A stretch of 64,000 bases of DNA. Origin: Moritella sp. 24. Its GTDB lineage: Bacteria; Pseudomonadota; Gammaproteobacteria; Enterobacterales; Moritellaceae. Made by a program: the position numbers and the translations under genes. The DNA lies in NCBI RefSeq assembly GCF_018219155.1, contig NZ_CP056123.1:2055505-2119504 (forward strand), written 5' to 3'. Position 1 is the first letter of the stretch. Each line of letters starts with the position of its first letter. The notes under the pieces were generated by a model that saw only the letters and a program-made list of their open reading frames with translations, searched no databases and was not told the DNA's origin. Of this stretch, positions 6,740 through 27,321 are shown piece after piece.

Positions 6740-6758
6740 TACCTGTTTTGTTTATAAT

Positions 6759-6783
6759 AAAACCACCTTCGGGTGGTTTTTTT
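6759..6783 (+). terminator. Rho-independent terminator of the sdh-suc operon
   Basis: A 9-bp stem (AAAACCACC with GGTGGTTTT) around a TTCG tetraloop runs into a T-run of seven. It lies 19 nt after sucD and separates the TCA operon from the STAS-led operon. Confidence 0.92.
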
Positions 6784-6906
6784 ATGTGTGCATTATCTAC
6801 TTTCAGAGTCTATATTATTAATCATGGGGTCGAATAAATATTAATGTTTTATTTACGTTAATTCTCTCCCTCTGAGCTAATTTTGTATTCTTTAGGAGTA
6901 ATAATA

Positions 6907-7242
6907 ATGGAAATGTCACGACCTCATGATGGAATAATTATTTTACAGCTTGCTACGGACCTAGATACCGAGCACGTAGTCAGTATTCAACCAAAATTAG
7001 AGGCATTGGTTGATGAGTATGCAGAGAATATCATCTTAGACTTCACCCGTGTCAACTTTATCGATTCAACTGGTATTGGCGCTATTGTTTTTTTATTCAA
7101 AAGATTAACGTCTCAACGCCGTACACTTTCTCTTCTTAAAGTCTCAGGTCAGCCGTATAAATTAATGACGATGCTACGTGTTGAAAATGCAATTCCTTTT
7201 ATTGAAAATGTAGCTGAATGTGATGCAAGTCGCTCGGCATAA
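6907..7242 (+). CDS. STAS-domain anti-sigma-factor-antagonist-like protein (SypA/SpoIIAA type)
   Basis: A single STAS domain fills this 111-residue protein. The phosphorylation loop reads NFIDSTGIGAI, with Ser54 in the position that is phosphorylated in SpoIIAA and in Vibrio fischeri SypA. The ATG at 6907 is chosen because AGGAG at 6894-6898 stands 8 nt ahead; a second ATG at 6913 is possible. It heads an operon whose fifth gene encodes a kinase-receiver-phosphatase protein that fits as its modifying enzyme, an arrangement known from sypA/sypE. In that system unphosphorylated SypA promotes biofilm formation. Function here is inferred from domain and context; homology to SypA specifically (rather than to any STAS protein) is not proven. 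Confidence 0.88.
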   Translation: MEMSRPHDGIIILQLATDLDTEHVVSIQPKLEALVDEYAENIILDFTRVNFIDSTGIGAIVFLFKRLTSQRRTLSLLKVSGQPYKLMTMLRVENAIPFIENVAECDASRSA

Positions 7243-7263
7243 GTAACAGCCGTAAGGTATTGA

Positions 7264-8391
7264 ATGAATAAATTATTGCTATGGATAGCTATATGCGTTT
7301 CTCTTTCTGCTTGTACAAATTGGCCTCGAGAAGGCTATTTTGAAAATACAACATTGGAAACTGAGAAACGAATCCAATTTAAAAAACATTATGAGTATTT
7401 AAATTTACATCTTTCTGTCGCTAATCTACGGGGCGCTGAAACCTGTACACCAGCTTATGTGAACGTTGTTAATAATATTAATAGCCGTGTTGAAAAAGCA
7501 ATTGCTGTTGAAGATTCTCAAGATATAAATGTTGAGATGGCGATCTTAGAAAGCAATATTACCGATTTAATTGTTAATTTAAACCGAGTAAGTGCTAATA
7601 CCAATTGCGCACAGCCACCTCGTTTACTTACATCAACGTTTGTTCACCCCTTAACATATCAACTTGACCTGCTACTTTACTGTGCTCCTCAGTTTCAAGA
7701 AGGACAGGCTGTGATGACTGAATTGTATAAGGTATGCCTTCGCCAAGTTAGCTTCCTGCTTTTAGATAATCCTGATGTTGTGATTGAATATACAAAATAT
7801 AAGCTGTTTGAACCTGTAAAAAACGCTGATCTTGAAGATTCAGATATTAATTATAATCAAGAGATTGTTATACATGACGTTGTGACTATTACCGATGTTA
7901 ATCGTGATCTAGCTGTCAACGCTGACAGTAATGACGATTATAATGACGTTATGCGTAAATACTTGGTATTTGATCAAATACCAAGTGTTGATGTAGAACA
8001 GCTATCACCAATAGAATTAAATATTACTCAAGTACATACACCTGTTCAAGTTCAAGAATTTCAAGTAGTAAATAAAGATAGTGCATTGTTTCAACCTGAT
8101 TCAGATGTGAATTATGCAATAGACCTTAAGGATGTTGAATTACTTAACTTACGCACTGATGCAATTTTTAACTATGTATCAAGTTTAATTTCAGATGATC
8201 AAAAGAATAGTATCATTTATGAAGACCTTAAGTTCAATGATAAACCGCCTTCAGACCCCGTTATTACAACACTTATGTGGAAATTAAAGAGCAATAAAGT
8301 TGTCGATCACAAAGTAAAAAATTGGCGTTTTTTACTTTCAGAAGGTGAGCAGTTTAGTGATGCGGCATTGCCGAAAGGAATCGCTTTATGA
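7264..8391 (+). CDS. Predicted outer-membrane lipoprotein of unknown function in the syp-like operon
   Basis: The 375-residue protein starts with a lipoprotein signal (MNKLLLWIAICVSLSACTNW) with lipobox LSAC and Cys17 as the predicted acylation site; the residues after Cys (TNW) do not give the Asp retention signal, so sorting to the outer membrane is likely. Three further Cys are scattered in the first half. I do not recognise the family. It begins 21 nt after the STAS gene and overlaps the export gene by 4 nt (ATGA), so it is co-translated with it and may act as an accessory of the export channel, in the position that sypB takes in the Vibrio locus; sequence similarity to SypB (OmpA-like) is not evident. 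Confidence 0.85.
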   Translation: MNKLLLWIAICVSLSACTNWPREGYFENTTLETEKRIQFKKHYEYLNLHLSVANLRGAETCTPAYVNVVNNINSRVEKAIAVEDSQDINVEMAILESNITDLIVNLNRVSANTNCAQPPRLLTSTFVHPLTYQLDLLLYCAPQFQEGQAVMTELYKVCLRQVSFLLLDNPDVVIEYTKYKLFEPVKNADLEDSDINYNQEIVIHDVVTITDVNRDLAVNADSNDDYNDVMRKYLVFDQIPSVDVEQLSPIELNITQVHTPVQVQEFQVVNKDSALFQPDSDVNYAIDLKDVELLNLRTDAIFNYVSSLISDDQKNSIIYEDLKFNDKPPSDPVITTLMWKLKSNKVVDHKVKNWRFLLSEGEQFSDAALPKGIAL

Positions 8392-10484
8392 AACTAACAT
8401 TATTTTTTTTGGTTTTTTTATTTTCATCCTCTATGGCTTTAGCGGAAAATAAAATAATTGATTCTGGAGATCAATTATTTATTTTTATGCCGGGTGAGAA
8501 AGACTTTGAAAAACCCTTTCAAGTCAACTCGAGTGGTTTTATACAGCTTCCTGAAGTGGGGAAGATACACGTAAAAGGTAAAACTTTACCTATCGTACTC
8601 GAAGAATTAAAGCAGTCCCTCAGTGTCGTTTTTCGTGATATATCAAAATTATATATAGAATTCAGAGCGCGTGAAAAACTCGTTACAGTATTGGGGTATG
8701 TTAATAACCCACGTGAAGTCGTATTACCAGAACTTGGTAACGTCCAAATGGCATTGAATAAAGCTGGAGGGATGTTAGCGGGTGCTCAACTCGATAATAT
8801 GCAGCTACAGCGTGGTGGTGAAGTTATTATATTTAACTTTAAACGTTATTTAGAAACGGGTGATGATAACGAACTACCGACGCTAAAATCTGGAGACATC
8901 ATATTTGTACCATCATCGCCATTAACGGGCAATGTGCAGATGTTATTTGATGCGACGTCCTTAAAATCAGGTGGTGATGCCAGTGACACTCAAAGAGCTG
9001 TGACTGTTTTTGGTGAAGTAAATGCGCCAGGAACATTCTCTTATGTGTCTGGAATGACGATTATTGAAAGTTTAATGAAAGCCAATGGTGTAACTCGTTA
9101 TGCCAATGTTGGAAAAATAAGAGTAATGGGGACGAAGGAACCGCAAATTTTTGATTTGAAGTTATACCTAGATACTGGCGACGTGTCTAAGTTACCGAAG
9201 ATAAGACCTGGTACGACTATCTTTGTTCCTATTCAGGTTGAAGATATTAAAGTGGGTTTACAAGTAGTCTATGTCATGGGGCAAGTTAATAAACCCGGTG
9301 CATTTGAAGGTCGTGAGGGTATTACCTTTATGGATATGCTTGCAAATGCCGGTGGACCGAACAGATATGCTGATACCCAGCAAATCAGAGTATTGAAAGT
9401 TTCTGGTGAAACATTCCGTTTTGATTTGAAAAAATATTCCGATGATCCTGAAAATAACCCCTTTCCTGTTATTGAAGGTGGGGATGTGATTTTTGTACCT
9501 GAAAAAGCAGATATGATTGAAAAATCATGGCTAATTGAGTCTCACAATGAGGCGATTAAAATCATTGGTGCGGTTAAAAATCCAGGACGTTACCAGTGGG
9601 ATGATGGCATGACATTCCTCGATTTACTTGGCCATGCAGAAGGACCAACTGAAAAAGCTGATTTATCAAAAGTAATGGTGATTGGTAATGATGGATTAGG
9701 TGAACGTCAATTTTTTGATTTAGAAAAATTCATGAAAGTTGGTGGTGACTACCTCACGTTACCACAGCTATCCGCTGGTGATACTGTTATGTTTACCGAA
9801 TTACCCGATGACCCTACAGATAATAAGTCAAAGTGGATAAAGCAAGAATCAGAATCTTCGATTTATATTCTAGGCTCTGTTGGTGCACCTGGTCGTTATG
9901 CGTTTAATAGTCGATTAGACTTTTTAGATTTACTTTCTGCTGCAGATGGTCCAACTAATGATGCAGATATTAAACATATAAAAGTCACACACCGTAATAA
10001 CCATTATGCTAAATCATCAACATTAGATTTAGATATGTACTTTGAGACGGGAGATGAAAGCCTTTTACCACAAGTATTGCCTGGTGATACGATCTATATA
10101 CCAGCGAAGAGTGATCAAGGGGAGTTAAATAATACGGTTAATATTGTACAAGTATTAGGTGCTGTGCATAACCCCGGTCGTTATAAGTACGATTCTTCAC
10201 TTGATGTCGTTGGTATATTGACAATGGCAGGTGGGCCAACATCAGAGGCTTATATAGATCGAATTGTGATTGTTACAAAACGTGGAGAAATGAAGCACAC
10301 TGCGCGCACGTTTAATATGAAGCATTACTTTACTCAACCTGATTATCGAGATATTCCAATTATTCATGCTGGGGACACTATATATATTCCTAATGAAAAA
10401 GAATCTAATTGGAGCCAGTTGCTGGATATACTCGGTAGTGCGTTAAGTGTTGTCACACTCTTTATTGTTGGGTCTTCGTTATGA
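8388..10484 (+). CDS. Polysaccharide export protein with six SLBB modules
   Basis: A type I signal peptide (cleavage near ALA-EN, residue 20) is followed by a polysaccharide-export domain (about 22-95) and six SLBB modules, opening at about residues 99, 206, 293, 390, 492 and 587 with patterns such as VLGYVNNP, VFGEVNAP, VMGQVNKP, IIGAVKNP, ILGSVGAP and VLGAVHNP; most end in GD-x-I-F/Y-V/I-P. The C-terminus has a hydrophobic stretch (about 677-698). Wza-type exporters usually have two or three SLBB modules and a lipidated Cys, so at 698 residues with no lipobox this is an enlarged non-lipidated relative. The probable role is a periplasmic/outer-membrane conduit for a polysaccharide, as SypC is. 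It overlaps both neighbouring genes by 4 nt. Confidence 0.88.
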   Translation: MKLTLFFLVFLFSSSMALAENKIIDSGDQLFIFMPGEKDFEKPFQVNSSGFIQLPEVGKIHVKGKTLPIVLEELKQSLSVVFRDISKLYIEFRAREKLVTVLGYVNNPREVVLPELGNVQMALNKAGGMLAGAQLDNMQLQRGGEVIIFNFKRYLETGDDNELPTLKSGDIIFVPSSPLTGNVQMLFDATSLKSGGDASDTQRAVTVFGEVNAPGTFSYVSGMTIIESLMKANGVTRYANVGKIRVMGTKEPQIFDLKLYLDTGDVSKLPKIRPGTTIFVPIQVEDIKVGLQVVYVMGQVNKPGAFEGREGITFMDMLANAGGPNRYADTQQIRVLKVSGETFRFDLKKYSDDPENNPFPVIEGGDVIFVPEKADMIEKSWLIESHNEAIKIIGAVKNPGRYQWDDGMTFLDLLGHAEGPTEKADLSKVMVIGNDGLGERQFFDLEKFMKVGGDYLTLPQLSAGDTVMFTELPDDPTDNKSKWIKQESESSIYILGSVGAPGRYAFNSRLDFLDLLSAADGPTNDADIKHIKVTHRNNHYAKSSTLDLDMYFETGDESLLPQVLPGDTIYIPAKSDQGELNNTVNIVQVLGAVHNPGRYKYDSSLDVVGILTMAGGPTSEAYIDRIVIVTKRGEMKHTARTFNMKHYFTQPDYRDIPIIHAGDTIYIPNEKESNWSQLLDILGSALSVVTLFIVGSSL

Positions 10485-11200
10485 ATATATTACCGGAAAC
10501 GTTTGTAGAGATTGAGCAGGTCTATCAGGTAATCGCGAATGAAAATATTAAATCACTAGCGGTTAATTGTTCTCAAGGGAAAGAAGGTGCAACAGAGCTT
10601 GTTTTAGCGTTAGCTCGACGTCATAAAGTCGCTGGAAGTAAGGTATTAATTGTAGATCTTAATACCTTCAAACCAGCAATAACGAATGAATATATTAAGG
10701 GTAAGCAATCATGGTCGCTTGATGATGCAGATTCGCAAACGGCGTGTATTACTCCATTTTCAGATATGATTGATATATTACCAGCACCGCAGAGTGAACA
10801 AGATCAAAATATTAGCTTCCGAGATGAAAAAAACCTCAAAAATGCGATCCAGTTTTGGCGACAACACTATAATTTTATTATATTTGATACATGTGCAATA
10901 ACGCGTACTAACTTTTCAAATATACCGGGTGAAGTTATTGCTAGGGGGTGTGATGCAAGTTTATTTGTCGTTGCGCCGGGTGTTTCGCTAGAGAGTAATG
11001 TATTGAAAGCAATTAAAATATTTAAATATAACAATGTTAAATTGCTTGGGACTGTTATTAATGATGTAAATTGTCCGCCGCTTGATATGCAATTTAGGAA
11101 TTCAGTTCGTCGACGGTTAAAGCGGTTTCCCATTTTTAAACAGTGGCTACTTAATCGCATCTCTAGCGTCGAACTCTTAAAGGGTAAATTTGGACGATAA
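10481..11200 (+). CDS. CpsD/CapB-like ParA-family protein with degenerate P-loop
   Basis: The 239-residue protein has the fold markers of the cytoplasmic half of bacterial tyrosine kinases: a P-loop-like segment at 29-39 (NCSQGKEGATE), a Walker A'-like strand KVLIVDLNTFKP (Asp59) and a Walker B-like strand NFIIFDTCA (Asp136). The lysine that normally precedes Ser/Thr in the EGKS/T motif is Ala37, and the C-terminus lacks the tyrosine cluster of BY-kinases. It may therefore be a non-catalytic scaffold for the export machinery rather than a kinase. No membrane segment is present. Position matches sypD. The stop overlaps the next start by one nucleotide (TAATG). Confidence 0.78.
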   Translation: MNILPETFVEIEQVYQVIANENIKSLAVNCSQGKEGATELVLALARRHKVAGSKVLIVDLNTFKPAITNEYIKGKQSWSLDDADSQTACITPFSDMIDILPAPQSEQDQNISFRDEKNLKNAIQFWRQHYNFIIFDTCAITRTNFSNIPGEVIARGCDASLFVVAPGVSLESNVLKAIKIFKYNNVKLLGTVINDVNCPPLDMQFRNSVRRRLKRFPIFKQWLLNRISSVELLKGKFGR

Positions 11201-12705
11201 TGAAAACACAACTTTTTGCTAAGCAATACCCACTAAAACTTGACTCCATTAGTGAAGTAAGGCGTCTTCTAACGACATTATGTCATCAATTGACGCTTGA
11301 ACAAGCTGAAGTCGATCGGGTTGCGTTAGTATTAGCTGAGTACCTTTCGAACCTTTATTTTCATAATAAAGGTTCAATTAATTGGTTTAGTATTGAGTTA
11401 ACAGGAAGCAAGGGAAATTGGTATTTTGCTGTGTCTGATAGCGGTAATAGTTTTGATCCTTATGCCGTTAATGTGAATGATATATTTAATGGCGAATTAC
11501 TGACTGGTGGTATGGGCATCGCGCTCATACAAAAGAATAACCCTGACGGCAGTTATGTGAGTAATAATGGGGTTAACCAATTCTCTTGTCCATTAAAGGA
11601 ACAGAGTAATAAATTAAAAGTGGTGATTGTTGATGATGACCAAATTCTATTATGGGCATATAGGGGTTATTTTCAGCATGATTTTGTAGTTCATATTTTC
11701 TCGAGTGCACAAATAGCGCTTAAATTTATTGAGCATGAAGGCTGTGATCTGATTATTGCAGATATTCATATGCCGGAAATGTCAGGGTTCGAGTTTAGGC
11801 TTAAAGTTGAATCTTTTGACCGAGGGCTATTAACGCCGTTTGTATTTTTAACGGGAGACGATAACTTATCAGTGCAAGAGCAAGCAGCAGAGGTCTCTAT
11901 TGATGCTTACTTGATTAAACCGATAACTAAAACCTCATTATTAACGGTTTGTAATCGCGTGATACGGAGGACTAATCAACTTGCATTACATTATCAACAA
12001 CGGGTTGTGGAATCGCTTAGTCGCCCATTTAAACCATCATTACCATCACATGCGGATGATTGGAATTTATCATTAGCACATACTCCAGCCAGTGAAGGCG
12101 GAGGGGATTTTGTATTTTTCCATGATTATGGAGAAAGTAAGCTTCTGATTTTAGGTGATATTATGGGGCATGGGCCTGTTGCTAAATTTCATAGTTTTGC
12201 AATAATGGGCTATCTAGAAGGACTGATAACATCTACGGCAATATGCCCGGCTAAGTTGCTCGCGGGCTTGTCACAACGGTTATATCTAAATCAGCTTTTA
12301 GAAACCAGTATGTTAACTTGCATTGTTATAAAGCTAACGGGAGAGGAATGTGAAATTGCGACAGCAGGACATCCTCAGCCTTACCTGTTACATGAAACGG
12401 GTTACGACGCAATTGATTGTAAGGGGACTGTTTTAGGGCTATTACCAAATGAACAATATTCCGCTGTTCGCGTGTCTTTAAATGCAGGAGAAAAGCTTTT
12501 TTTCTATTCAGATGGGATTTTCGAAAATATTGATAGAAATTGTGATTGTATTGACAATATACTAACTGGTATTAAAGGTACTACAGCGCAATGTGTGCTA
12601 GACCAATTATGGTTACGTTTCGAATCACTTTTATCGGAACAATTACAGGATGATGCGACTGCAATAGTCATTGATCTAAATAATAAGTTTAAATTAAAAA
12701 TATGA
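11200..12705 (+). CDS. SypE-like regulator: RsbW-type kinase, receiver and PP2C/SpoIIE phosphatase
   Basis: Three domains in 501 residues. Residues 1-135 form an RsbW/SpoIIAB-type HATPase (N-box E47..N51, DSG at 80-82, GGMGIALI at 103-110). Residues 138-258 form a receiver with acidic D145-D147, phospho-acceptor D188 in IADIHMPEMSG, T218 and K240. Residues 290-497 form a PP2C/SpoIIE phosphatase with metal ligands GGD (303), LGDIMGHG (320), YSDG (438) and DDAT (484-487). This order is that of V. fischeri SypE, which phosphorylates and dephosphorylates the STAS protein SypA under control of its receiver. All catalytic residues look intact in each domain. The STAS gene four places upstream is the obvious substrate, and the Hpt protein downstream the probable phosphodonor. 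Confidence 0.9.
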   Translation: MKTQLFAKQYPLKLDSISEVRRLLTTLCHQLTLEQAEVDRVALVLAEYLSNLYFHNKGSINWFSIELTGSKGNWYFAVSDSGNSFDPYAVNVNDIFNGELLTGGMGIALIQKNNPDGSYVSNNGVNQFSCPLKEQSNKLKVVIVDDDQILLWAYRGYFQHDFVVHIFSSAQIALKFIEHEGCDLIIADIHMPEMSGFEFRLKVESFDRGLLTPFVFLTGDDNLSVQEQAAEVSIDAYLIKPITKTSLLTVCNRVIRRTNQLALHYQQRVVESLSRPFKPSLPSHADDWNLSLAHTPASEGGGDFVFFHDYGESKLLILGDIMGHGPVAKFHSFAIMGYLEGLITSTAICPAKLLAGLSQRLYLNQLLETSMLTCIVIKLTGEECEIATAGHPQPYLLHETGYDAIDCKGTVLGLLPNEQYSAVRVSLNAGEKLFFYSDGIFENIDRNCDCIDNILTGIKGTTAQCVLDQLWLRFESLLSEQLQDDATAIVIDLNNKFKLKI

Positions 12706-12715
12706 GGTAAAAGAG

Positions 12716-13060
12716 ATGGAAAACACAGCTATAAATGAAACGGTATTCTCTCAATTGTTAGTTGATGTAGGTGAAGAAATGTTACCTGCATTAGTTGCTG
12801 TTTTTAATGAAGAAACAACAGAACGTATTTCTGAATTAGAGTTGTTGGTTGTCAATGTTGATAACCATAAAGTGGCTCAAAATTGTCACAGTATAAAAAG
12901 TAGTGCTGGTACGTATGGTGCACTCGTTGTGCAACAACATGCTGAAGAGTTAGAAATTATGGCAAAGTCAAATCATACGGATGAAGTACAAGAGAAATTG
13001 CCATTACTGATCGGTAGTCTACAAGACGCAATTAACGAACTGTCGTTAAGATGTGATTAA
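12716..13060 (+). CDS. Stand-alone histidine phosphotransfer (Hpt) protein
   Basis: The 114-residue protein is one four-helix Hpt domain with NCHSIKSSAGTYGA, placing the phospho-histidine at His58. It starts 10 nt after the SypE-like gene (GAGGTAAAAG as ribosome binding site), so it is co-transcribed with it. In the Vibrio system the Hpt domain of the hybrid kinase SypF supplies phosphate to SypE; here the domain is a separate protein and no sensor kinase is adjacent. Its 3' end overlaps the convergent YvcK-like gene by 29 nt. Confidence 0.9.
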   Translation: MENTAINETVFSQLLVDVGEEMLPALVAVFNEETTERISELELLVVNVDNHKVAQNCHSIKSSAGTYGALVVQQHAEELEIMAKSNHTDEVQEKLPLLIGSLQDAINELSLRCD

Positions 13061-13943
13061 CAACAGACTCAATGGCCTCTTTTAATTTTACTCGGTCATG
13101 ATAGTTTTTGTTCATATCTTCACGCAAGTCATGGATATAGGTAGAGTAACTCAGCTCTGATTGCTTATCTATATCCTGTATAACAGCATTGATAAATGGA
13201 AAACCGACCGTATTTTCACACCACTGTAAACGTTCCTGTAGAGGCCGCTTAGAAGCTGGGCCAATTTCATGTTGTAAATTACCCAAATAAATCACTTTTG
13301 CGTTTGTTCTGCGTAGGGCTTTTTGTATATCACTCAGTAGAAGGGGAGGCATGATACTGGTTAAAAATGATCCCGGCCCTAATAATATCAATTCAGCTTT
13401 TTCGATGGCTTGTACCGCTTCTAATGTAGCAGATACATTGGGTTGAACAGTTAATTGATGTGGAAACTCATGCATCTTATCTACAGATACTTCACCGTGA
13501 ACATCATTACCACTAGGTGTGACAGCAATTAAATCACTTGGGTGCTCAGACATGGGAATCAACTGACATTCGACATGGAGCATATTGCGAATAAGGTTAA
13601 CAGCATCTAAAGGGCGCACACAGAGATTATCTAGCGCAACCAGCATCAGATTACCTAAGTTGTGATTTTTTAGCTCCCCTTCGTTTTGAAAGCGATATTC
13701 AAACAATAAAGAACCAATATCAGGCTGAGTGACTAATTGGTTAATACAATTACGAACATCTCCCCAGGCAATACAGTTTTCAGAATGTCTCAACCGTCCT
13801 GTTGAGCCACCATTATCTGTAGTTGTTACTATGCCTGTTAATCTTGAACCTAAAAAGGAAAGAGAAGAGAGTACACGGCCTAAACCATGACCACCGCCAA
13901 TAGCGACAACCTTATCGAGATCTGAAAGTGATTTTTGTAACAT
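13032..13943 (-). CDS. YvcK/CofD-like protein (YbhK type)
   Basis: The 303-residue protein opens with KVVAIGGGHGLGRVLSSLSFL and carries TTDNGGSTGRLR, the nucleotide-sugar/phosphate-binding motifs of the CofD-like family called gluconeogenesis factor (YvcK) in Gram-positives and YbhK in E. coli. In Bacillus, YvcK binds UDP-sugars and affects carbon metabolism and wall synthesis; the gammaproteobacterial role is unsettled. It is convergent with the Hpt gene, overlapping its last 29 nt. In E. coli ybhK neighbours moaA; here narQP and a LON-domain gene lie between the two. Confidence 0.85.
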   Translation of the reverse strand: MLQKSLSDLDKVVAIGGGHGLGRVLSSLSFLGSRLTGIVTTTDNGGSTGRLRHSENCIAWGDVRNCINQLVTQPDIGSLLFEYRFQNEGELKNHNLGNLMLVALDNLCVRPLDAVNLIRNMLHVECQLIPMSEHPSDLIAVTPSGNDVHGEVSVDKMHEFPHQLTVQPNVSATLEAVQAIEKAELILLGPGSFLTSIMPPLLLSDIQKALRRTNAKVIYLGNLQHEIGPASKRPLQERLQWCENTVGFPFINAVIQDIDKQSELSYSTYIHDLREDMNKNYHDRVKLKEAIESVVNHILTTVR

Positions 13944-15444: not shown

Positions 15445-17161
15445 GTTTGTTTTCCCTATCGAAGGTAAGTAATACCAAGGTGCCTTGTATTATATTGTTT
15501 TTTATTTCTAATTTAGCGCCTAGTTTCGAAGCGCGTTCACCCATTATATTTAGGCCGTAATGATTAGATTTAGTTGGATTTGCTGGAATTCCATCACCAT
15601 CATCCGAAATAGATACTTTTATAGTACCATTTTTATTCATCCCACAGTCAATCATTATTTCGTTTGAGTTCGCATGTTTGATGGAATTTAATACAGCTTC
15701 TCTAATTATTTGCAATATATGGATGTGTTGGTTGGGTTTAAATAAATGTTCCTCTAATTCGTAGCTTAGATGAATTTTCGATTTTGTGCGTTGGCGAAGC
15801 TGTGCAAGCATGATTGAAATGGCTTCTGAAAGGTTCGCATCATCAAGTGTTAAACGGAATGTATTTAATAATTCCCTAAGTTGTGTGTAAGATAATTTTA
15901 AGTTTGTATCGATCTCTTCCACAATTTCATTCGTGGTGGGTGTTATTTCTTGATTTTTTAAATGACGTTTTAATAACGCGACTTGAATTTTTAGATAAGA
16001 AAGTGCTTGTGCGAGTGAATCATGTAGTTCACGGGCAATAACTGCACGTTCTTCCATTAGAAGCGAACGCTGTGCTTCTAGGTTACTTTGAGAGCGATGT
16101 TGTGCTCGAGAAAGAATTCGGCAGTAGCTTTGTATGTGCTCTTGATCTTTTAATTCACGTTTTAATACTGTGAATGTACCAAAAGATTGCTCTTCGAGTT
16201 CCAGTTTTAAATCAACGGTTTCTTCGCCGTTATTAGAGCCTGCGTTTAGATAAATAGTTTCAACTTCAGAACCCGTTAATACCAGTCTGTAAAAGTTTAA
16301 ACCATTGAGTTCAGAGACATTTTGTAAGGTTTGTTCAAGCATGTCAGCGTTAAGATGGGTAACGTGTAGTTTTTGTGACGTCGTGTATAAGAAATTGATT
16401 TTATCTTTAGCTTCTTTTAATTGCTTTGTTTTAGCGTCAACTTGTTGCTCTAGCGTACTGTATAGCTTGTTTAAATCTTTGGCCATATGCGAAATGTTGC
16501 TCGCCAGTGAACCAATTTCATTCTCATAGAAAAAATCAAATGAAACATCAAATTCACCTTTTCTAATTTGGTTCGATGCCGCAAATATCTGTTGTAAGGG
16601 TTTTAACACCTGAACTTGCATAAGACGAATAGTGATAATACAGACAGCAAAAATAAGTCCGATACCAAGGCCCTTTATTAATGTAATAATTTTAACTTTG
16701 TATTCAGAATGATTTTGTAAATTCTGTACAAAATTATCAATTTCTAATACAAAATCGTCGACTTCCTCTAAGAATAGCTTGGGGTTATCACTGTATAAGA
16801 TATCTAATTGAGTTTGCCACTGGGTATCGACATCCATGAATTCTTTTTTCAGTTTTGATGTGATATCCCAATTATCGACAATATTATTTTTAATGTGTGC
16901 GAGTGATTGGTTAAAGGTATCAATATGATTTTGACGTAATATCTCGGAATCGTCTCTGGATAAATTGTAAGCGATTTGATAGCTTTGCATTCTTAATGCG
17001 CCGGCTTTATTAATCGATGAGGCGTCGGAAAGACTTAGTGATAACGCAACTAAGGAAATAAACGTTAGCATTGACGCAAGAGCCAGTATGCTGAACATTC
17101 CGCGACCGATTAAAATGATAATAGACTGATGAGAGGGGATTATATTTTTTATCATGTTCAC
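15437..17161 (-). CDS. narQ: Nitrate/nitrite sensor histidine kinase NarQ
   Basis: Topology: transmembrane helix near 20-44, periplasmic sensor region beginning with the P-box (INKAGALRMQSYQI, about 50-63) that binds nitrate or nitrite, a second transmembrane helix near 164-186, HAMP, a coiled-coil/GAF-like linker, then the HisKA_3 dimerisation helix with ARELHDSLAQALSYLKIQV (phospho-His380) and an HATPase ending near 570 (DDGDGIP, YGLNIMGERA). At 574 residues it has the usual NarQ length. It forms an operon with narP and is divergent from moaA. Confidence 0.92.
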   Translation of the reverse strand: MNMIKNIIPSHQSIIILIGRGMFSILALASMLTFISLVALSLSLSDASSINKAGALRMQSYQIAYNLSRDDSEILRQNHIDTFNQSLAHIKNNIVDNWDITSKLKKEFMDVDTQWQTQLDILYSDNPKLFLEEVDDFVLEIDNFVQNLQNHSEYKVKIITLIKGLGIGLIFAVCIITIRLMQVQVLKPLQQIFAASNQIRKGEFDVSFDFFYENEIGSLASNISHMAKDLNKLYSTLEQQVDAKTKQLKEAKDKINFLYTTSQKLHVTHLNADMLEQTLQNVSELNGLNFYRLVLTGSEVETIYLNAGSNNGEETVDLKLELEEQSFGTFTVLKRELKDQEHIQSYCRILSRAQHRSQSNLEAQRSLLMEERAVIARELHDSLAQALSYLKIQVALLKRHLKNQEITPTTNEIVEEIDTNLKLSYTQLRELLNTFRLTLDDANLSEAISIMLAQLRQRTKSKIHLSYELEEHLFKPNQHIHILQIIREAVLNSIKHANSNEIMIDCGMNKNGTIKVSISDDGDGIPANPTKSNHYGLNIMGERASKLGAKLEIKNNIIQGTLVLLTFDRENKHA

Positions 17162-19325: not shown

Positions 19326-19598
19326 ATGGCAGAACAAGAAATTCATATATCGAGTTTAATTATTCACGTAAAACCAGAGTCATTGCTGGACGTGAAGAAT
19401 AAAATCGCTGCAATACCAGAAGCTGAAATCTACGGTGATAGTGAAGAGGGAAAAATTATCGTCGTATTGGAAACAGCTAATCAGAAATTTGTGACTGACA
19501 TTATTGATAACATTAATAATCTCGAACATGTCTTAAGTACTTCTCTTGTTTTTCATCAAATTGAAACTATCGATCTATCATGTGAGGATGATCTATGA
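19326..19598 (+). CDS. napD: NapD chaperone for the NapA Tat signal
   Basis: This 90-residue protein matches the NapD family ([15 protein letters not shown] at the start, GKIIVVLE in the middle). NapD binds the twin-arginine signal of NapA and holds it back until the cofactor is inserted. Its last four nucleotides overlap the napA start (ATGA), coupling chaperone and client synthesis. Only this copy is intact; a short scar resembling its 3' end precedes the second napA. Confidence 0.92.
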
Positions 19599-22081
19599 AA
19601 TTAACCAGACGTGCGTTTGTTAAAGCAAATGCTGCAGTCTCTGCGGCTGCAATTGCTGGCGTTACACTTCCTACTAGTGCAACTAATCTTATTGCAAGTA
19701 GTGATGAGACTAAAATTAAGTGGGACAAAGCGCCATGTCGTTTCTGCGGAACAGGTTGCTCTGTACTTGTAGGTACACAAGGCGGTAAAGTTGTTGCGAC
19801 TCAAGGCGATCCTGAAGCGCCTGTGAACAAAGGTCTTAACTGTGTTAAAGGCTATTTCTTATCTAAAATCATGTATGGTAAAGATCGTTTAACGACTCCT
19901 CTATTACGTATGAGAGACGGTAAATTTGCTAAAGACGGCGAATTCGCACCGATTTCATGGGATCAAGCTTTTGATATCATGGCAGAGAAGTGGAAAGCAT
20001 CATTAAAAGCAAACGGTCCAACATCTGTTGGTATGTTCGGTTCTGGTCAATGGACTGTAATGGAAGGTTATGCTGCTGTTAAATTGATGAAAGCTGGTTT
20101 CCGTTCAAATAATATCGATCCTAACGCGCGTCACTGTATGGCTTCTGCGGTTGGTGGTTTCATGCGTACGTTCGGTATCGATGAGCCAATGGGTTGTTAT
20201 GATGACTTCGAAAATGCAGACTCGTTTGTACTTTGGGGTTCAAACATGGCTGAGATGCATCCAATCCTATGGACGCGTATTACAGACCGTCGTTTAAGTA
20301 ATCCACATGTAAAAGTAAACGTATTATCAACGTATAAGCATCGTTCATTTGAACTTGCTGATACTGGTGTTGTTTTCAATCCACAATCAGATCTAGCAAT
20401 GGCTAACTTTATTGCTAACTACATCATCCAAAACGATGCTGTAAACTGGGATTTTGTTAACAAACATACTCATTTCAAACGTACTGCAACCGATATCGGT
20501 TATGGTCTACGTGACGAACATCCACTACAACAGAAAGCGAAAAATCCTAACTCAGGTAAATTGTCAGCAATGACATTTGAAGAATACAAAGCATCTGTTG
20601 CAGAATACACAATTGAAAAAGCATCTGAATTATCAGGTGTATCAGAAGAAAAACTACTGATTCTAGCGAAGCAGTACGCGGATCCAAACACGAAAGTAAT
20701 GTCGTTATGGACAATGGGTATGAATCAACATACTCGTGGCGTATGGATGAATAGCCTTGTTTACAATATCCATTTACTTGTAGGTAAAATCTCACAGCCT
20801 GGTAACGGTCCGTTCTCACTGACTGGTCAACCATCAGCATGTGGTACTGCACGTGAAGTGGGTACATTCTCACACCGTCTACCTGCAGATATGATGGTTG
20901 CGAATCCGAAGCATCGTGCAACTGCTGAAAAAATTTGGAAATTACCTGAAGGTACTATTCCACCGAAACCAGGTCTGCATGCTGTTGCACAAAACCGTGC
21001 ATTAAAAGACGGTACGTTAAATGCGTATTGGACTATGTGTAATAACAACATGCAAGCAGCTCCAAACATGATGGAAGAAGGTTTACCGGGTTACCGTAAT
21101 CCAGCTAACTTCATCGTTTGTTCTGACCCGTACCCAACAGTAACTGCACAAGCATCTGACCTTATTTTACCAACAGCAATGTGGGTAGAGAAAGAAGGCG
21201 CATACGGTAACGCTGAACGTCGTACGCAAGCTTGGTATCAACAAGTTAAATCTGTTGAAGGTGCAAAATCAGATTTATGGCAGTTAATGGAATTCTCTAA
21301 ACGCTTCAAGATTGAAGAAGTGTGGGGCGAAGATCTAATCGCTAAAATGCCTGAAGTTCGTGGTAAAACGATGTATGACGTACTGTATAAAAACGGTAAC
21401 GTTGACGCATTCCCACTAAGTGAAGCGCAAGAGCTAAATGATGATGCTAATGATCAAGGCTTCTATGTACAAAAAGGTCTATTCGAAGAATACGCTACCT
21501 TTGGTCGTGGCCATGGTCATGATTTAGCACCATACGATGTTTACCATACAGTACGTGGTTTGCGTTGGCCTGTTGTAAATGGCGTTGAAACGAAATGGCG
21601 TTTTGCAGAAGGCAGTGATCCTTACGTAGGTAAAGGTAAAGGTTTTGAGTTCTATGGTAAGCCAGATGGTAAAGCAAACATCATCTTCGCACCGTATGAA
21701 GCGCCACCAGAAATGCCAAATGAAGAATATGACATGTGGCTATGTACTGGTCGTGTATTAGAACATTGGCATTCAGGTACAATGACGGCGCGTGTTCCTG
21801 AGCTATATCGTGCAATGCCAGATGCGCTTTGTTATATCCACCCTGACGATGCTAAAAAACGTAATGTACGTCGTGGTGATGAAGTTCTTATTGAATCAGT
21901 TCGTGGTGAAGTGCGTTGTCGTGTGGAAACACGTGGCCGTAACCGCCCACCAGTAGGCTTAGTATTTGTACCTTGGTTTGATGCGCGAGTATTAATTAAC
22001 AAAGTATGTCTAGATGCTACGGATCCGTTATCAAAACAAACGGATTATAAAAAATGTGCAATTAAAATTACCAAAGTGTAA
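19595..22081 (+). CDS. napA: Periplasmic nitrate reductase catalytic subunit NapA (copy 1)
   Basis: The 828-residue molybdoenzyme reduces nitrate to nitrite in the periplasm. It has a Tat signal ([11 protein letters not shown]), a [4Fe-4S] site formed by Cys48, Cys51, Cys55 and Cys83, and Cys181 in [11 protein letters not shown] as the probable molybdenum ligand; the bis-MGD binding folds follow. Electrons come from NapC through NapB. The gene overlaps napD by 4 nt and belongs to napFDABC. A second napA 1.6 kb downstream has the same length with 18 differences in the first 190 residues and fewer later on. Confidence 0.97.
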
Positions 22082-22169
22082 TTCAAACTGCATATCTTAC
22101 TGAATGAGTTTGCCAGTAAACGATACTGGCAAATAACGGACTTACTTGCCAATAGGCGGAGAACATAAT

Positions 22170-22637
22170 ATGAGAAAATTATTGGCTGTACTGCTAGCTG
22201 CAGGGACTTTATTCTCTGTATCAGCACAAAGTACAGAAACTGCTGAAATTGAGAATGTAAACAACGGTGGCGTTGCATCGCTGCGTGGTATCACTGAGTT
22301 AGATACAACACGTAAAGCGGATGAACTGAAACGCGTAATCAAAGATCGTAGCCCAATCGATCGTGATTATGTATATCAACCACCACTTGTTCCGCATCAA
22401 ACACGTCATTATGAAGTGTCTTTAAATGCGAACAAATGTTTGTCATGCCACAGCTGGAAATATGCTGGTGAAATGGGCGCGACTAAAATCAGTGTAACGC
22501 ATTACCAATCACGTGAAGGCGAAGTATTATCGGACGTATCACCACGTCGTTATTTCTGTCTACAGTGCCATGTTACACAAGCAGATGCAGCACCGTTAAT
22601 CGACAATGACTTTAAACGTGTAGATTCATTACGCTAA
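22170..22637 (+). CDS. napB: Periplasmic nitrate reductase dihaem cytochrome NapB (copy 1)
   Basis: A cleavable signal peptide (MRKLLAVLLAAGTLFSVSAQ) precedes a mature protein with two haem motifs, CLSCH and CLQCH. The ATG at 22170 follows AGGCGGAG at good distance; an upstream in-frame GTG/ATG-type extension would spoil the signal peptide. NapB takes electrons from NapC and feeds NapA. Its mature part is nearly the same as in copy 2, while the two signal peptides differ at many positions. Confidence 0.95.
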   Translation: MRKLLAVLLAAGTLFSVSAQSTETAEIENVNNGGVASLRGITELDTTRKADELKRVIKDRSPIDRDYVYQPPLVPHQTRHYEVSLNANKCLSCHSWKYAGEMGATKISVTHYQSREGEVLSDVSPRRYFCLQCHVTQADAAPLIDNDFKRVDSLR

Positions 22638-22655
22638 CGAAAAAGAGGCGGTAAA

Positions 22656-23228
22656 ATGAAATTTATTTTAAATTTTTGGCGAAAATTAACGGCACCAAGT
22701 AAAGCTGCTGTCGGTACTGTACTTGCTATGGGTTTCCTTGGCGGTATTATTTTCTGGGGTGCCTTTAACATGGGTATGGAAGCGACAAATACAGAAGAAT
22801 TCTGTTCTGCTTGTCACGCGCCTATTGTTAAAGAATTAAAAGAAACAATTCACTATTCGAATCGTTCTGGTGTGCGCGCAATCTGTTCTGATTGTCACGT
22901 ACCACATAACTGGACAGATAAAATTGTACGTAAAGTACAAGCGAGTAATGAAATTGTGGCATTCTTGATGGGTAAGATCTCGACTCAAGAAAAGTTCGAA
23001 GCACGTCGTAAACATCTAGCTGTACGTGAATGGCAACGTATGAAAGAAAATGATTCACAGGAATGTCGTAACTGCCATAACTTTGAATACATGGACTTCT
23101 CAGAGCAAGGCCCGCGTAGTAGAAAACAACACTCTACAGCATTAGCGAGTGGCGAAAAAACATGTGTAGATTGCCATAAAGGTATTGCCCATCAACTACC
23201 AGATATGTCAGATGTACCTGGTTGGTAG
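22656..23228 (+). CDS. napC: NapC/NirT-family tetrahaem quinol dehydrogenase (copy 1)
   Basis: One N-terminal membrane anchor (about 18-38, VGTVLAMGFLGGIIFWGAF) holds a periplasmic domain with four CXXCH motifs (CSACH, CSDCH, CRNCH, CVDCH). It oxidises quinol and passes electrons to NapB. No napG or napH is present, so this is the only quinol route in the cluster. It differs from copy 2 at only seven of 190 residues. Confidence 0.95.
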   Translation: MKFILNFWRKLTAPSKAAVGTVLAMGFLGGIIFWGAFNMGMEATNTEEFCSACHAPIVKELKETIHYSNRSGVRAICSDCHVPHNWTDKIVRKVQASNEIVAFLMGKISTQEKFEARRKHLAVREWQRMKENDSQECRNCHNFEYMDFSEQGPRSRKQHSTALASGEKTCVDCHKGIAHQLPDMSDVPGW

Positions 23229-23662: not shown

Positions 23663-26149
23663 ATGAAACTGACCAGACGGGCATTTGTTAAAGCAAACGC
23701 AGCGGTATCTGCAGCGGCAATCGCGGGAGTGACACTTCCTGCGACAGCGACTAACCTGATTGCAAGTTCGAGTGAAACTAAGATTAAATGGGATAAAGCG
23801 GCTTGCCGTTTTTGTGGCACTGGCTGTTCAGTTTTAGTCGGTACAAAAGGAGGGAAAGTCGTTGCGACACAAGGTGATCCTGAATCACCTGTAAATAAGG
23901 GGTTAAAATGTGTTAAAGGCTACTTCCTTTCTAAAATCATGTACGGTAAAGATCGATTAACTACGCCCTTATTACGAATGAAAGACGGTAAGTATGCCAA
24001 AGATGGTGAATTTATGCCGGTTTCATGGGATCACGCTTTTGATGTGATGGCAGATAAATGGAAAACATCGTTAAAAGAAAAAGGACCGACATCTGTTGGT
24101 ATGTTCGGTTCTGGCCAGTGGACTGTCATGGAAGGCTATGCGGCGGTTAAATTAATGAAGGCTGGTTTCCGCTCTAACAACATTGATCCGAATGCGCGTC
24201 ATTGTATGGCCTCTGCTGTTGGCGCTTTCATGCGTACGTTTGGTATTGACGAACCGATGGGCTGTTATGATGATTTCGAGCATGCAGACTCATTTGTACT
24301 TTGGGGTTCAAACATGGCTGAAATGCATCCTATATTATGGACGCGTATTACAGACCGTCGTTTAAGTAATCCACATGTAAAAGTAAACGTATTATCAACC
24401 TATAAACATCGTTCATTTGAGCTCGCTGATACGGGAATTGTGTTTAACCCACAATCTGATCTAGCAATGGCGAACTTCATTGCTAACTACATTATTCAAA
24501 ATGATGCAGTTAATTGGGACTTTGTTAATAAGCATACTCATTTTAAACGTACTGCGACGGATATCGGTTACGGACTACGTAACGAACATCCGTTACAGCA
24601 GAAAGCGAAAAACCCTAATTCAGGTAAATTATCAGCAATGACGTTCGAGGAGTACAAAGCCTCTGTTGCTGAATATACGGTTGAAAAAGCCGCAGAGATT
24701 TCTGGTGTATCAGAAGATAAATTACTTATTTTAGCTAAGCAATATGCAGATCCAAACACTAAAATAATGTCATTATGGACGATGGGGATGAATCAGCATA
24801 CACGCGGTGTATGGATGAATAGCCTTATTTATAATATCCACTTATTAGTCGGTAAAATATCTCAACCGGGTAATGGACCGTTTTCACTGACAGGCCAGCC
24901 ATCAGCCTGTGGTACTGCGCGTGAAGTGGGTACTTTCTCACACCGTCTACCTGCCGATATGGTTGTTAAGAACCCGAAGCATCGCGCTATTTCTGAAAAA
25001 ATATGGAAGCTACCAGAGGGCACTATCCCTGCTAAACCTGGGTTGCATGCTGTTGCACAAAACAGAGCTTTAAAAGATGGATCGTTAAATGCGTATTGGA
25101 TCATGTGTACGAACAATATGCAGGCAGCTCCAAATATGATGGAAGAAAGCTTACCGGGCTACCGTAACCCAGATAATTTTATTGTTTGTTCTGACCCATA
25201 CCCAACGGTTACAGCGCAAGCATCCGATCTTATTTTACCAACTGCGATGTGGGTAGAAAAAGAGGGCGCTTATGGTAATGCTGAACGACGAACGCAAACC
25301 TGGTATCAGCAAGTAAAACCCATTGACGGTGCAAAATCAGATTTATGGCAGTTAATGGAGTTCTCTAAGCGTTTTAATATTGAAGAAGTATGGGACGAAG
25401 AACTGATCGCTAAAATGCCTGACGTCCGTGGTAAAACGATGTTTGATGTGTTGTTTAAAAATGGCCAAGTTGATGCTTTCCCAATTGAAGAGGCACAAGC
25501 ATTAAATGATGAATCTCATGACTTTGGCTTTTATGTTCAAAAAGGCTTATTTGAAGAATATGCAACGTTTGGCCGTGGTCATGCCCATGATTTAGCCCCT
25601 TATGATACTTATCATCAAGTACGCGGTTTACGTTGGCCTGTCGTAAATGGTGTTGAAACGAAATGGCGCTTTGCTGAAGGCAGTGATCCTTACGTAGGTA
25701 AAGGTAAAGGTTTTGAGTTTTATGGTAAGCCAGATGGTAAAGCAAACATCATCTTTGCACCTTATGAAGCGCCACCTGAAGTGCCAAATGATGAATATAA
25801 CATGTGGCTATGTACTGGTCGTGTACTCGAACATTGGCATTCAGGCAGCATGACGGCACGTGTACCAGAGCTTTACCGTGCGATGCCGGATGCACTTTGT
25901 TATATCCATCCAGATGATGCAAAAAAACATAATGTACGTCGTGGCGATGAAGTCTTGATTGAATCTATTCGTGGTGGAGTTCGTTGTCGCGTTGAAACTC
26001 GTGGGCGTAATAGACCTCCAGTTGGTTTAGTATTTGTTCCTTGGTTTGATGCAAGAGTACTGATCAACAAGGTTATTCTAGATGCAACAGACCCATTATC
26101 AAAGCAAACTGATTTCAAAAAATGCCCAATTAAAATAACCAAAGTGTAA
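23663..26149 (+). CDS. napA: Periplasmic nitrate reductase catalytic subunit NapA (copy 2)
   Basis: The 828 residues align without gaps to copy 1, keeping the Tat motif LTRRAFVK, cluster ligands Cys48/51/55/83 and Mo ligand Cys181, so it should be active. Codon choice differs widely at silent positions while the protein is conserved, showing long purifying selection; two patches are nearly identical in DNA, as treated under findings. No napD or napF accompanies it; it must share the NapD of the first cluster. It heads napABC plus microprotein in a second transcription unit. Confidence 0.96.
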
Positions 26150-26236
26150 GGACAATTGTGCATTTTGAACATCTCTTTTGTCAGCTGTGATGGCTGGCAG
26201 AAAATAGATTATTGGCCACTAGGCGGAGAATAGATA

Positions 26237-26704
26237 ATGAAGAAAATAATCGGAGTATTACTGACTGCAGGGGCATTGCTTTCTGCAAGTGTGATCGCAA
26301 CAGAGGCAACTCATATTGAAAACGTAAATAGCGGAGGTGTTGAATCGATGCGCGGAATAACCGAGCTTGATGATACCCGTAAAGCAGATGAGTTAAAGCG
26401 TGTGATTAAAGATCGTGGGCCCATAGATCGTGATTATGTGTACCAGCCACCATTAGTGCCGCATCAAACCAGAGGCTATGAAGTATCGTTAAATGCCAAC
26501 AAATGTTTGTCATGCCACAGTTGGAAATACGCAGGTGAAATGGGCGCGACTAAGATCAGTGTTACGCATTATCAATCACGTGAAGGGCAAGTCCTTGCTG
26601 ATGTATCACCGAGTCGCTATTTCTGCTTGCAATGTCATGTGACTCAAGTTGATGCCAAGCCATTAATTGAGAATGACTTTAAACGTGTAGATTCATTACG
26701 TTGA
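26237..26704 (+). CDS. napB: Periplasmic nitrate reductase dihaem cytochrome NapB (copy 2)
   Basis: The 155-residue protein has a signal peptide different from copy 1 (MKKIIGVLLTAGALLSASVIA) but an almost unchanged mature part with CLSCH and CLQCH haem sites. The ribosome binding site AGGCGGAG matches that of copy 1. Its partner enzyme is presumably NapA copy 2, though exchange between clusters is likely given the similarity. Confidence 0.95.
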   Translation: MKKIIGVLLTAGALLSASVIATEATHIENVNSGGVESMRGITELDDTRKADELKRVIKDRGPIDRDYVYQPPLVPHQTRGYEVSLNANKCLSCHSWKYAGEMGATKISVTHYQSREGQVLADVSPSRYFCLQCHVTQVDAKPLIENDFKRVDSLR

Positions 26705-26748
26705 TTCATCTCAAATGACCGTAGCCTAAACGAAAAAGAGGCGATTAA

Positions 26749-27321
26749 ATGAAATTAATTTTAAATTTTTGGCGTAAGCTGACCACACCGAGTAAAGCGG
26801 CTGTTGGTACTATTTTAGCAATGGGCTTTCTCGGAGGTATTATTTTCTGGGGTGCCTTTAATATGGGAATGGAGGCGACAAATACGGAGGAGTTTTGTTC
26901 TGCTTGTCATGCTCCCATTGTTAAAGAACTAAAGGAAACGATTCATTACTCTAATCGTTCAGGTGTACGTGCTATTTGTTCTGATTGTCACGTCCCCCAC
27001 AAATGGACAGATAAGATTGTGCGTAAAGTACAAGCGAGTAATGAAATTGTCGCATTCTTGATGGGAACCATTTCGACTCAAGAAAAATTTGAAGCGCGTC
27101 GTAAGCACTTAGCTGTTCGTGAATGGCAACGCATGAAAGAAAATGATTCACAGGAATGTCGTAACTGCCATAACTTTGAATATATGGACTTTTCGGAGCA
27201 AGGTCCGCGTAGTAAGAAGCAACACTCTACAGCACTCGCAAGTGGCGAAAAAACGTGTGTTGATTGTCACAAAGGTATTGCGCACAAGCTACCGGATATG
27301 TCAGATGTACCAGGTTGGTAA
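26749..27321 (+). CDS. napC: NapC/NirT-family tetrahaem quinol dehydrogenase (copy 2)
   Basis: One N-terminal membrane anchor and four CXXCH motifs, identical to copy 1 except for seven substitutions (for example N-to-K before WTDK, K-to-T before ISTQ). The flanking leader CGAAAAAGAGGCG is also shared with copy 1. It supplies quinol electrons to NapB. Confidence 0.95.
   Translation: MKLILNFWRKLTTPSKAAVGTILAMGFLGGIIFWGAFNMGMEATNTEEFCSACHAPIVKELKETIHYSNRSGVRAICSDCHVPHKWTDKIVRKVQASNEIVAFLMGTISTQEKFEARRKHLAVREWQRMKENDSQECRNCHNFEYMDFSEQGPRSKKQHSTALASGEKTCVDCHKGIAHKLPDMSDVPGW

Follow-up and report, generated by a model that had tools for sequence, protein, structure and literature searches.

The sypA-like operon of Moritella

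The stretch of DNA analysed here (the window), 64,000 nucleotides of Moritella sp. 24 spanning positions 2,055,505 to 2,119,504 of contig NZ_CP056123.1, carries a six-gene operon (Table 1), which an earlier note made from the letters of the window had likened to sypA to sypF of Vibrio (Aliivibrio) fischeri. Judging from its sequence, this operon is the sypA-sypF end of the syp/scv exopolysaccharide locus. The gene order, the domains, the catalytic residues and the 1- to 4-nt overlaps listed in the note are all borne out by open reading frame (ORF) and Pfam analyses (three of the five junctions overlap, the spacings being +21, -4, -4, -1 and +10 nt in order), and comparison loci, one of which has the same order (G258, see below), uphold the homology to sypA-F and the SypE architecture with Asp188. 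An intrinsic-terminator-like hairpin 3' of sucD suggests that the six genes form a separate transcription unit, which probably has its own transcription start. At the other end, the hpt ORF overlaps a convergent YvcK gene by 29 nt and, as had been said of this site, no glycosyltransferase, polymerase, flippase or sigma-54 regulator follows the operon (next two genes by Pfam; two further, to position 17161, by eye). All 11 Moritella genomes compared (that of the window and ten congeners) keep these six genes together with the convergent YvcK, and the operon is therefore not a chance arrangement.

Table 1. The six-gene operon of the window and its immediate borders (window coordinates).
Feature	Position	Strand	Basis and remarks
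sucD-sypA intergenic region	6740-6906	+	Terminator-like hairpin at 6759-6783; without sigma-54 -24/-12-like element
STAS protein, SypA-like	6907-7242	+	Pfam; phospho-site Ser in DSTGIG, Lys-Arg at Ser+11/+12
Lipoprotein, SypB N-terminal half	7264-8391	+	Lipobox by eye; no Pfam match
SypC-like outer-membrane polysaccharide exporter, 698 aa	8388-10484	+	Pfam Poly_export and SLBB repeats
SypD-like CpsD/BY-kinase-related protein	10481-11200	+	Without Walker A lysine
SypE-like HATPase (Ser kinase)-receiver (Asp188)-SpoIIE/PP2C phosphatase	11200-12705	+	Pfam
Stand-alone Hpt protein, SypF position	12716-13060	+	Pfam
YvcK gene, convergent with operon; neighbour only	13032-13943	-	ORF and domains

The proteins of the operon

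The fifth protein appears to have all the hallmarks of SypE (a HATPase kinase Asn, a receiver Asp and a PP2C domain). Receiver Asp188, kinase Asn51, the STAS Ser and the PP2C-motif Asp residues (which we take to be those typical of the family) are invariant in A4 and A3. Among named genomes, a scan with this protein returned 28 loci: four at 77-85% identity, all from Moritella, and 24 partial matches of 23-32% identity, mostly to single domains. The STAS phospho-Ser and the Lys-Arg pair at Ser+11/+12 are present in 11/11 Moritella, and the pair is also found in 21 of 22 other STAS proteins; it occupies the position of K67 and R68, which are needed by V. fischeri SypA (PMC4517449). By these residues, the SypE/SypA/Hpt partner switch looks intact in Moritella. 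The SypF position is occupied by a bare Hpt protein, a hybrid kinase with HPt being absent from the site (an unlinked kinase was not sought).

Among 24 comparison loci outside Moritella, the STAS Ser is kept in 8/8 SypE-positive loci and in ten SypE-negative ones, the STAS of G151 is diverged and two loci have no called STAS. In G018 (L132/L133), G042 (L164/L165) and G088 (L148), where SypE was not detected, the phospho-Ser is replaced by Ala (DASG), which resembles the non-phosphorylatable SypA S56A.

The lipoprotein aligns with SypB relatives over residues 1-174 only (hhalign probability 98.3). Pfam finds no OmpA domain in the two Moritella SypB scanned, whereas it does in 3/3 relatives tested, and an AlphaFold model of the lipoprotein has a mean predicted local distance difference test score of 32.7. 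As for the CpsD-like protein, both marks of CpsD/Wzc-type bacterial tyrosine kinases (BY-kinases) are wanting: the Walker A lysine is missing in 11/11 Moritella (Thr, Gly, Ser or Ala stands there) and no C-terminal Tyr cluster was seen by eye. In the 24 loci outside Moritella, the same position is Val in 17, Thr in two, Ser in one, Ala or Ser in one, Lys in one (G233) and unread in two (G373 and G277). The SypD family thus looks like a pseudo-BY-kinase, as far as its motifs can tell; our literature search found no paper linking SypD with the Walker motif.

Synthesis genes elsewhere in the genome

Profiles built from other genera were searched in the 11 Moritella genomes. Every genome has one strong SypQ/R (glycosyltransferase plus Bac_transf) and one strong SypO (Wzz) close together (E below 1e-150), within the gene row sypM-N-(ORF of 157-212 aa)-O-P-Q/R; when the operon of the window's own genome was run against Pfam, sypN matched below cut-off and the intervening ORF had no match. 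SypL (Wzy) is also found in 11/11 (E <= 7e-162), and so is a SypG-like sigma-54 regulator, whose 666-695 bits compare with about 400 for the next match and which lies downstream of and adjoining Wzx (sypK) in the seven neighbourhoods read among these 11 genomes. In the window's own genome, where the operon is at 2.062 Mb, sypM-N-O-P-Q/R is at 2.357 Mb (about 0.29 Mb away), while sypL at 1.564 Mb and a glycosyltransferase with Wzx (sypK) and the SypG-like regulator at 1.586 Mb are both about 0.5 Mb away. The operon is therefore a piece of a syp/scv locus whose genes have been scattered. The suggestion in the earlier note that the polysaccharide is made elsewhere is supported by these unlinked genes, but its picture of a minimal, compact module is not, since most synthesis genes and the SypG-like regulator are present, and its 'no glycosyltransferases' is true of the site and not of the genome.

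Contiguity in one locus, usual for syp/scv (although not required), is absent in Moritella. Where a single contig carries both sypC and sypL (five genomes), they are 500-684 kb apart; in the remaining six genomes they are split between contigs. Outside the genus, the two genes lie within 40 kb of each other in 52 of 59 carriers (the largest distance being 24.7 kb); G018 has them 891 kb apart, and six carriers have them on separate contigs, in some cases close to a contig end. Because 52 of 59 other carriers keep sypC and sypL linked, and because G258 has the window order followed by sypG, sypH and sypL, it seems that an ancestral syp locus was scattered in Moritella. Dispersal of scv genes, with distances of about 15 to 1,612 kb, has been described in V. 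comitans, V. panuliri and V. superstes (PMC8941931), a report whose main text does not name Moritella.

Comparison loci and membership in syp/scv

Among 394 genomes of the order (11 Moritella), the lipoprotein matched only two outside the genus (E 5e-8 and 2e-4), both with a six-gene-type block inside a Wzx/Wzy polysaccharide locus, while the SLBB-protein profile matched 70/394 genomes in 15/115 genera, Moritella included (E <= 1e-60). We opened 24 loci outside Moritella in all (2 + 17 + 5). In three of these (G030, G053 and G155, one family), the order is STAS, OmpA-lipoprotein, SLBB, CpsD, (regulators), sigma-54 regulator, glycosyltransferases, Wzx, Wzy, hexapeptide transferase, glycosyltransferase, Wzz and glycosyltransferases. 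This is the sypA-R order tabulated, with functions, for A. salmonicida (Table 4 of PMC6420764), and the genes were named accordingly. These three genomes are probably Vibrionaceae, because they also carry a LuxO-type second match. In G258, A-B-C-D-E-Hpt-G-H-L-M-N are found in a row, the first six in the window order (its Hpt was named from a weak BLAST match, E 4e-4).

The scv-positive genomes of PMC8941931 were defined, according to that report, by the queries ScvC, ScvL and ScvO, and we infer from which genes it gives as absent that ScvL is SypO and ScvO is SypR. All 11 Moritella genomes have orthologues of the three, with SypC in the operon of the window and SypO plus SypQ/R together at one site. 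In the SypC tree, Moritella SypC forms one clade (support 100/100) on a long branch. In addition, a figure legend in PMC5019070 names orthologues of BinK, which regulates syp negatively, in M. dasanensis and M. marina; our literature search found no paper on Moritella with biofilm and a STAS domain.

In short, the Moritella system resembles syp of V. fischeri and A. salmonicida in its STAS with Lys-Arg, SypB N-terminal half, SLBB exporter, CpsD-like protein, SypE with phospho-Asp and HPt in the F position, as well as in its sypM-R, L, K and G-like genes, although these are elsewhere in the genome. It differs in that the genes are not contiguous, sypH was not found, the SypF position is a bare Hpt (as in G258), SypB has no detectable OmpA and sypA has no sigma-54-like promoter. 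The scv locus is known from V. parahaemolyticus and 28 genera, scvB being absent in some (PMC8941931). Moritella has the same gene families, and scattering was already described there for three Vibrio species, but here it concerns all 11 genomes of one genus, in which SypE is retained, and no promoter change is described in the available text of that report.

The promoter of sypA

Sigma-54-like elements (GG-N10-GC with at least 8/12 consensus bases) were sought within 250 bp upstream, counted from a shared anchor close to the start of sypA; they are consensus matches and predicted promoters only. Such an element is found in 21 of the 22 non-Moritella loci used (G052 and G098, in which no STAS was called, were dropped), or 18/22 at a score of at least 9, with G301 as the exception. 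In 20 of these loci its distance upstream is 55-89 bp, and in G151 it is 218. By contrast, none of the 11 Moritella genomes has any GG-N10-GC within 250 bp upstream of sypA. Random 250-bp windows score at least 8 in 13.5% of cases in the other genomes and in 5.5% in Moritella. The V. fischeri SypG site motif is present near sypA in G030, G053 and G155 and was not found near sypA in Moritella. The lack of a sigma-54-like element suggests that sypA transcription has probably left SypG control in Moritella and that the operon uses another promoter. Against such a loss, G001, G002, G005, G007 and G010 have an element scoring 8-9 about 290 bp upstream of sypA, which was not counted as a promoter because it lies each time within the sucD coding sequence. 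For the other fragments, the 400 bp preceding the first gene (sypM in 11 genomes, sypL in 7 and the Wzx-linked glycosyltransferase in the 6 that have it called) gave a single match scoring at least 8, in G010; a match before Wzx in G000 falls inside the preceding gene.

Weighing the readings

We give a probability of roughly 0.82 to the reading that the six genes, sypA-B-C-D-E-Hpt, serve control and export within a syp/scv biofilm polysaccharide locus broken up in Moritella, whose polysaccharide is built by unlinked genes and controlled by a partner switch. Several points weigh against it: (i) a clear sypH orthologue was not found (the best match is about 128 bits, with matches at E <= 1e-30 in 10/11 Moritella), (ii) the SypI-like glycosyltransferase is intact in only 5/7 neighbourhoods, being split in G010 and not called in G006, (iii) orthology was assessed by tree for the regulator and SypC only, and the regulator tree, which contains long rows, places the Moritella SypG-like protein outside the Vibrio LuxO clade without grouping it clearly with SypG, (iv) other polysaccharide loci of Moritella, together with a second, weaker full-length Wzz-type protein found in 11/11 genomes (309-348 bits), could pair with this exporter and (v) homology and co-occurrence are what suggest that the scattered genes act jointly with the operon. 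In G010 (L206/L207), the SypI-like glycosyltransferase is in two ORFs with a 392-aa ORF between them.

It is improbable that the operon is instead a compact module switching the export of an unrelated polysaccharide or another SLBB-dependent surface structure. The absence of synthesis genes at the site and the presence of other exopolysaccharide loci in the genome speak for it, but each of the 11 genomes contains relatives of the syp synthesis genes, a small exporter and a Wzc-like protein are encoded within the exopolysaccharide locus at 2.33 Mb itself, and in each of 19 comparison loci opened the block is accompanied by syp-type glycosyltransferase genes or has them no more than about 20 kb away. 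No second full syp locus with its own SypA/SypE, which by the earlier note would have spoken against its reading, was found in the genome. The idea that SypC is a small protein (about 170 aa), which could have made the loci with small exporters at 2.33 and 4.44 Mb the 'real' syp, was ruled out, SypC of intact loci being about 700 aa, and no SypA/SypE was recognised by eye at these loci. Elsewhere, L037:10653-15502 has, by eye, a 230-aa possible regulator, a Wzc-like protein, a 399-aa ORF and a small polysaccharide exporter, near UvrA-like and pilus-like genes; no glycosyltransferase was recognised nearby, and 'export without synthesis' may hold there.

In RsbV/RsbW/RsbU and SpoIIAA/SpoIIAB switches, a STAS Ser is phosphorylated by a HATPase kinase and this is reversed by a PP2C phosphatase, a scheme that the Moritella set appears to share. 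That it is such a general stress-response switch, placed beside an exporter by chance, is nevertheless very unlikely. The STAS, HATPase and PP2C domains are generic, and the STAS matches NCBIfam TIGR00377 (52.3 bits, cut-off 53.45) and the SpoIIAA model (41.2, cut-off 114.75), but it is 42% and 39% identical to the STAS of two intact syp-type loci versus only 23% to the other partner-switch STAS of its own genome, Lys-Arg is conserved, kinase and phosphatase are in a single receiver-gated chain like SypE, and no sigma factor was found among the adjacent genes read. The genome encodes three SpoIIE-type proteins. Of the other two, one is a receiver-PP2C adjoining the STAS of 23% identity, which has Lys-Met in place of Lys-Arg. 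The third SpoIIE-type protein is a weak match (35.5 bits) with no receiver or STAS neighbour by eye in its ORF listing, on which no domain search was run. A second partner-switch set of the genome (L043:5138-8395, names partly by eye) consists of consecutive genes for a receiver-PP2C, a STAS, a sugar-nucleotide transferase and an RsbW-like kinase.

The operon is hardly a decaying remnant of a lost syp locus either since, even if the Moritella site no longer has the genes found after hpt in G258 and the sigma-54-like promoter is missing, most of the pathway is kept and the six genes are near-constant in length in 11/11 Moritella, with median pairwise ratios of non-synonymous to synonymous substitution rates (Ka/Ks) from 0.045 (sypC) to 0.160 (sypB). 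The medians are 0.048 for yvcK, 0.056-0.100 for nine scattered genes and 0.031 (n=6) for sucD, our yardstick, all but the last being rough values because Ks is near saturation. The window operon, yvcK and the sypM-R operon were compared across 11 genomes, Wzy, Wzx and the regulator across seven and the linked glycosyltransferase across six (including the shortened G010 piece), after exclusion of pairs with undefined Ks. All 16 measured genes look to be under purifying selection.

Surroundings of the operon

sucC and sucD lie directly 5' of the operon in 6/11 Moritella genomes, which, like the sucD-internal element, has no bearing on the main claim. In G003, G004, G006, G008 and G009 (L092, L093, L095, L097 and L098), they are not in the 6-7 kb upstream, where phage-like ORFs (by eye) reach to within a few hundred bases of sypA; G008 keeps the terminator-like hairpin beside the operon. 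YvcK is at or near syp-type loci in four non-Moritella genomes (L088:16271-17170; L089:4406-5281; L157 in G373; L150:15645-16538 in G233). In G301 and G390, whose loci are intact, it adjoins hpt, and in G373 it stands one ORF off; this may be a chance neighbourhood or a UDP-sugar link. Further along the window, 19595-23228 and 23663-27321 hold apparent tandem nap (periplasmic nitrate reductase) gene sets, with 828-aa proteins 92% identical and 190-aa proteins 96% identical.

A proposed mechanism and its implications

In V. fischeri, the N-terminal domain of SypE phosphorylates SypA on Ser56, for which Asn52 is needed (PMC4517449). Upon a phosphorelay signal, SypE dephosphorylates SypA, which in its unphosphorylated form permits biofilm (PMC4517449, PMC3610818), RscS being thought to signal via the SypF HPt to SypG and SypE (PMC5019070). 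How SypA acts was still unknown as of PMC4517449 (2015). If the direction of the switch, phosphoflow through Hpt, the effect on biofilm and the joint action of the scattered genes are all as in V. fischeri, the Moritella polysaccharide would be assembled by the unlinked sypM-N-O-P-Q/R, Wzy (sypL) and glycosyltransferase plus Wzx (sypK) genes, and the Wzx/Wzy/Wzz machinery of the inner membrane would hand it over to the SLBB exporter that the operon provides for the outer membrane. Without phosphoryl input, the HATPase of the SypE homologue would phosphorylate the STAS Ser, rendering the SypA homologue inactive. Phosphoryl flow via Hpt to Asp188 would shift SypE to its PP2C phosphatase activity, which would free the STAS and permit polysaccharide production. 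With the sypA operon on a non-sigma-54 promoter, the partner switch would carry more of the control.

A tentative extension, which we consider possible rather than probable, is that scattering in the Moritella ancestor accompanied loss of SypG/sigma-54 control, that the SypE/SypA/Hpt switch (SypA acting post-transcription) became the main on/off control and that the SypG-like regulator serves other promoters, so that the two arms known from the V. fischeri biofilm relay would here be separated naturally.

The Moritella system is thus a genus-wide, probably rewired variant of a known system. Its SypA/E/Hpt arm stands beside only a lipoprotein, an exporter and a CpsD-like protein, apparently under its own promoter, which narrows the candidates for SypA action. 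Moritella also lets the partner-switch arm be studied separately from the SypG arm. Finally, an exporter operon that looks like an 'orphan' can belong to a nearly complete pathway whose genes are scattered and which comes to light only in whole-genome profile searches.

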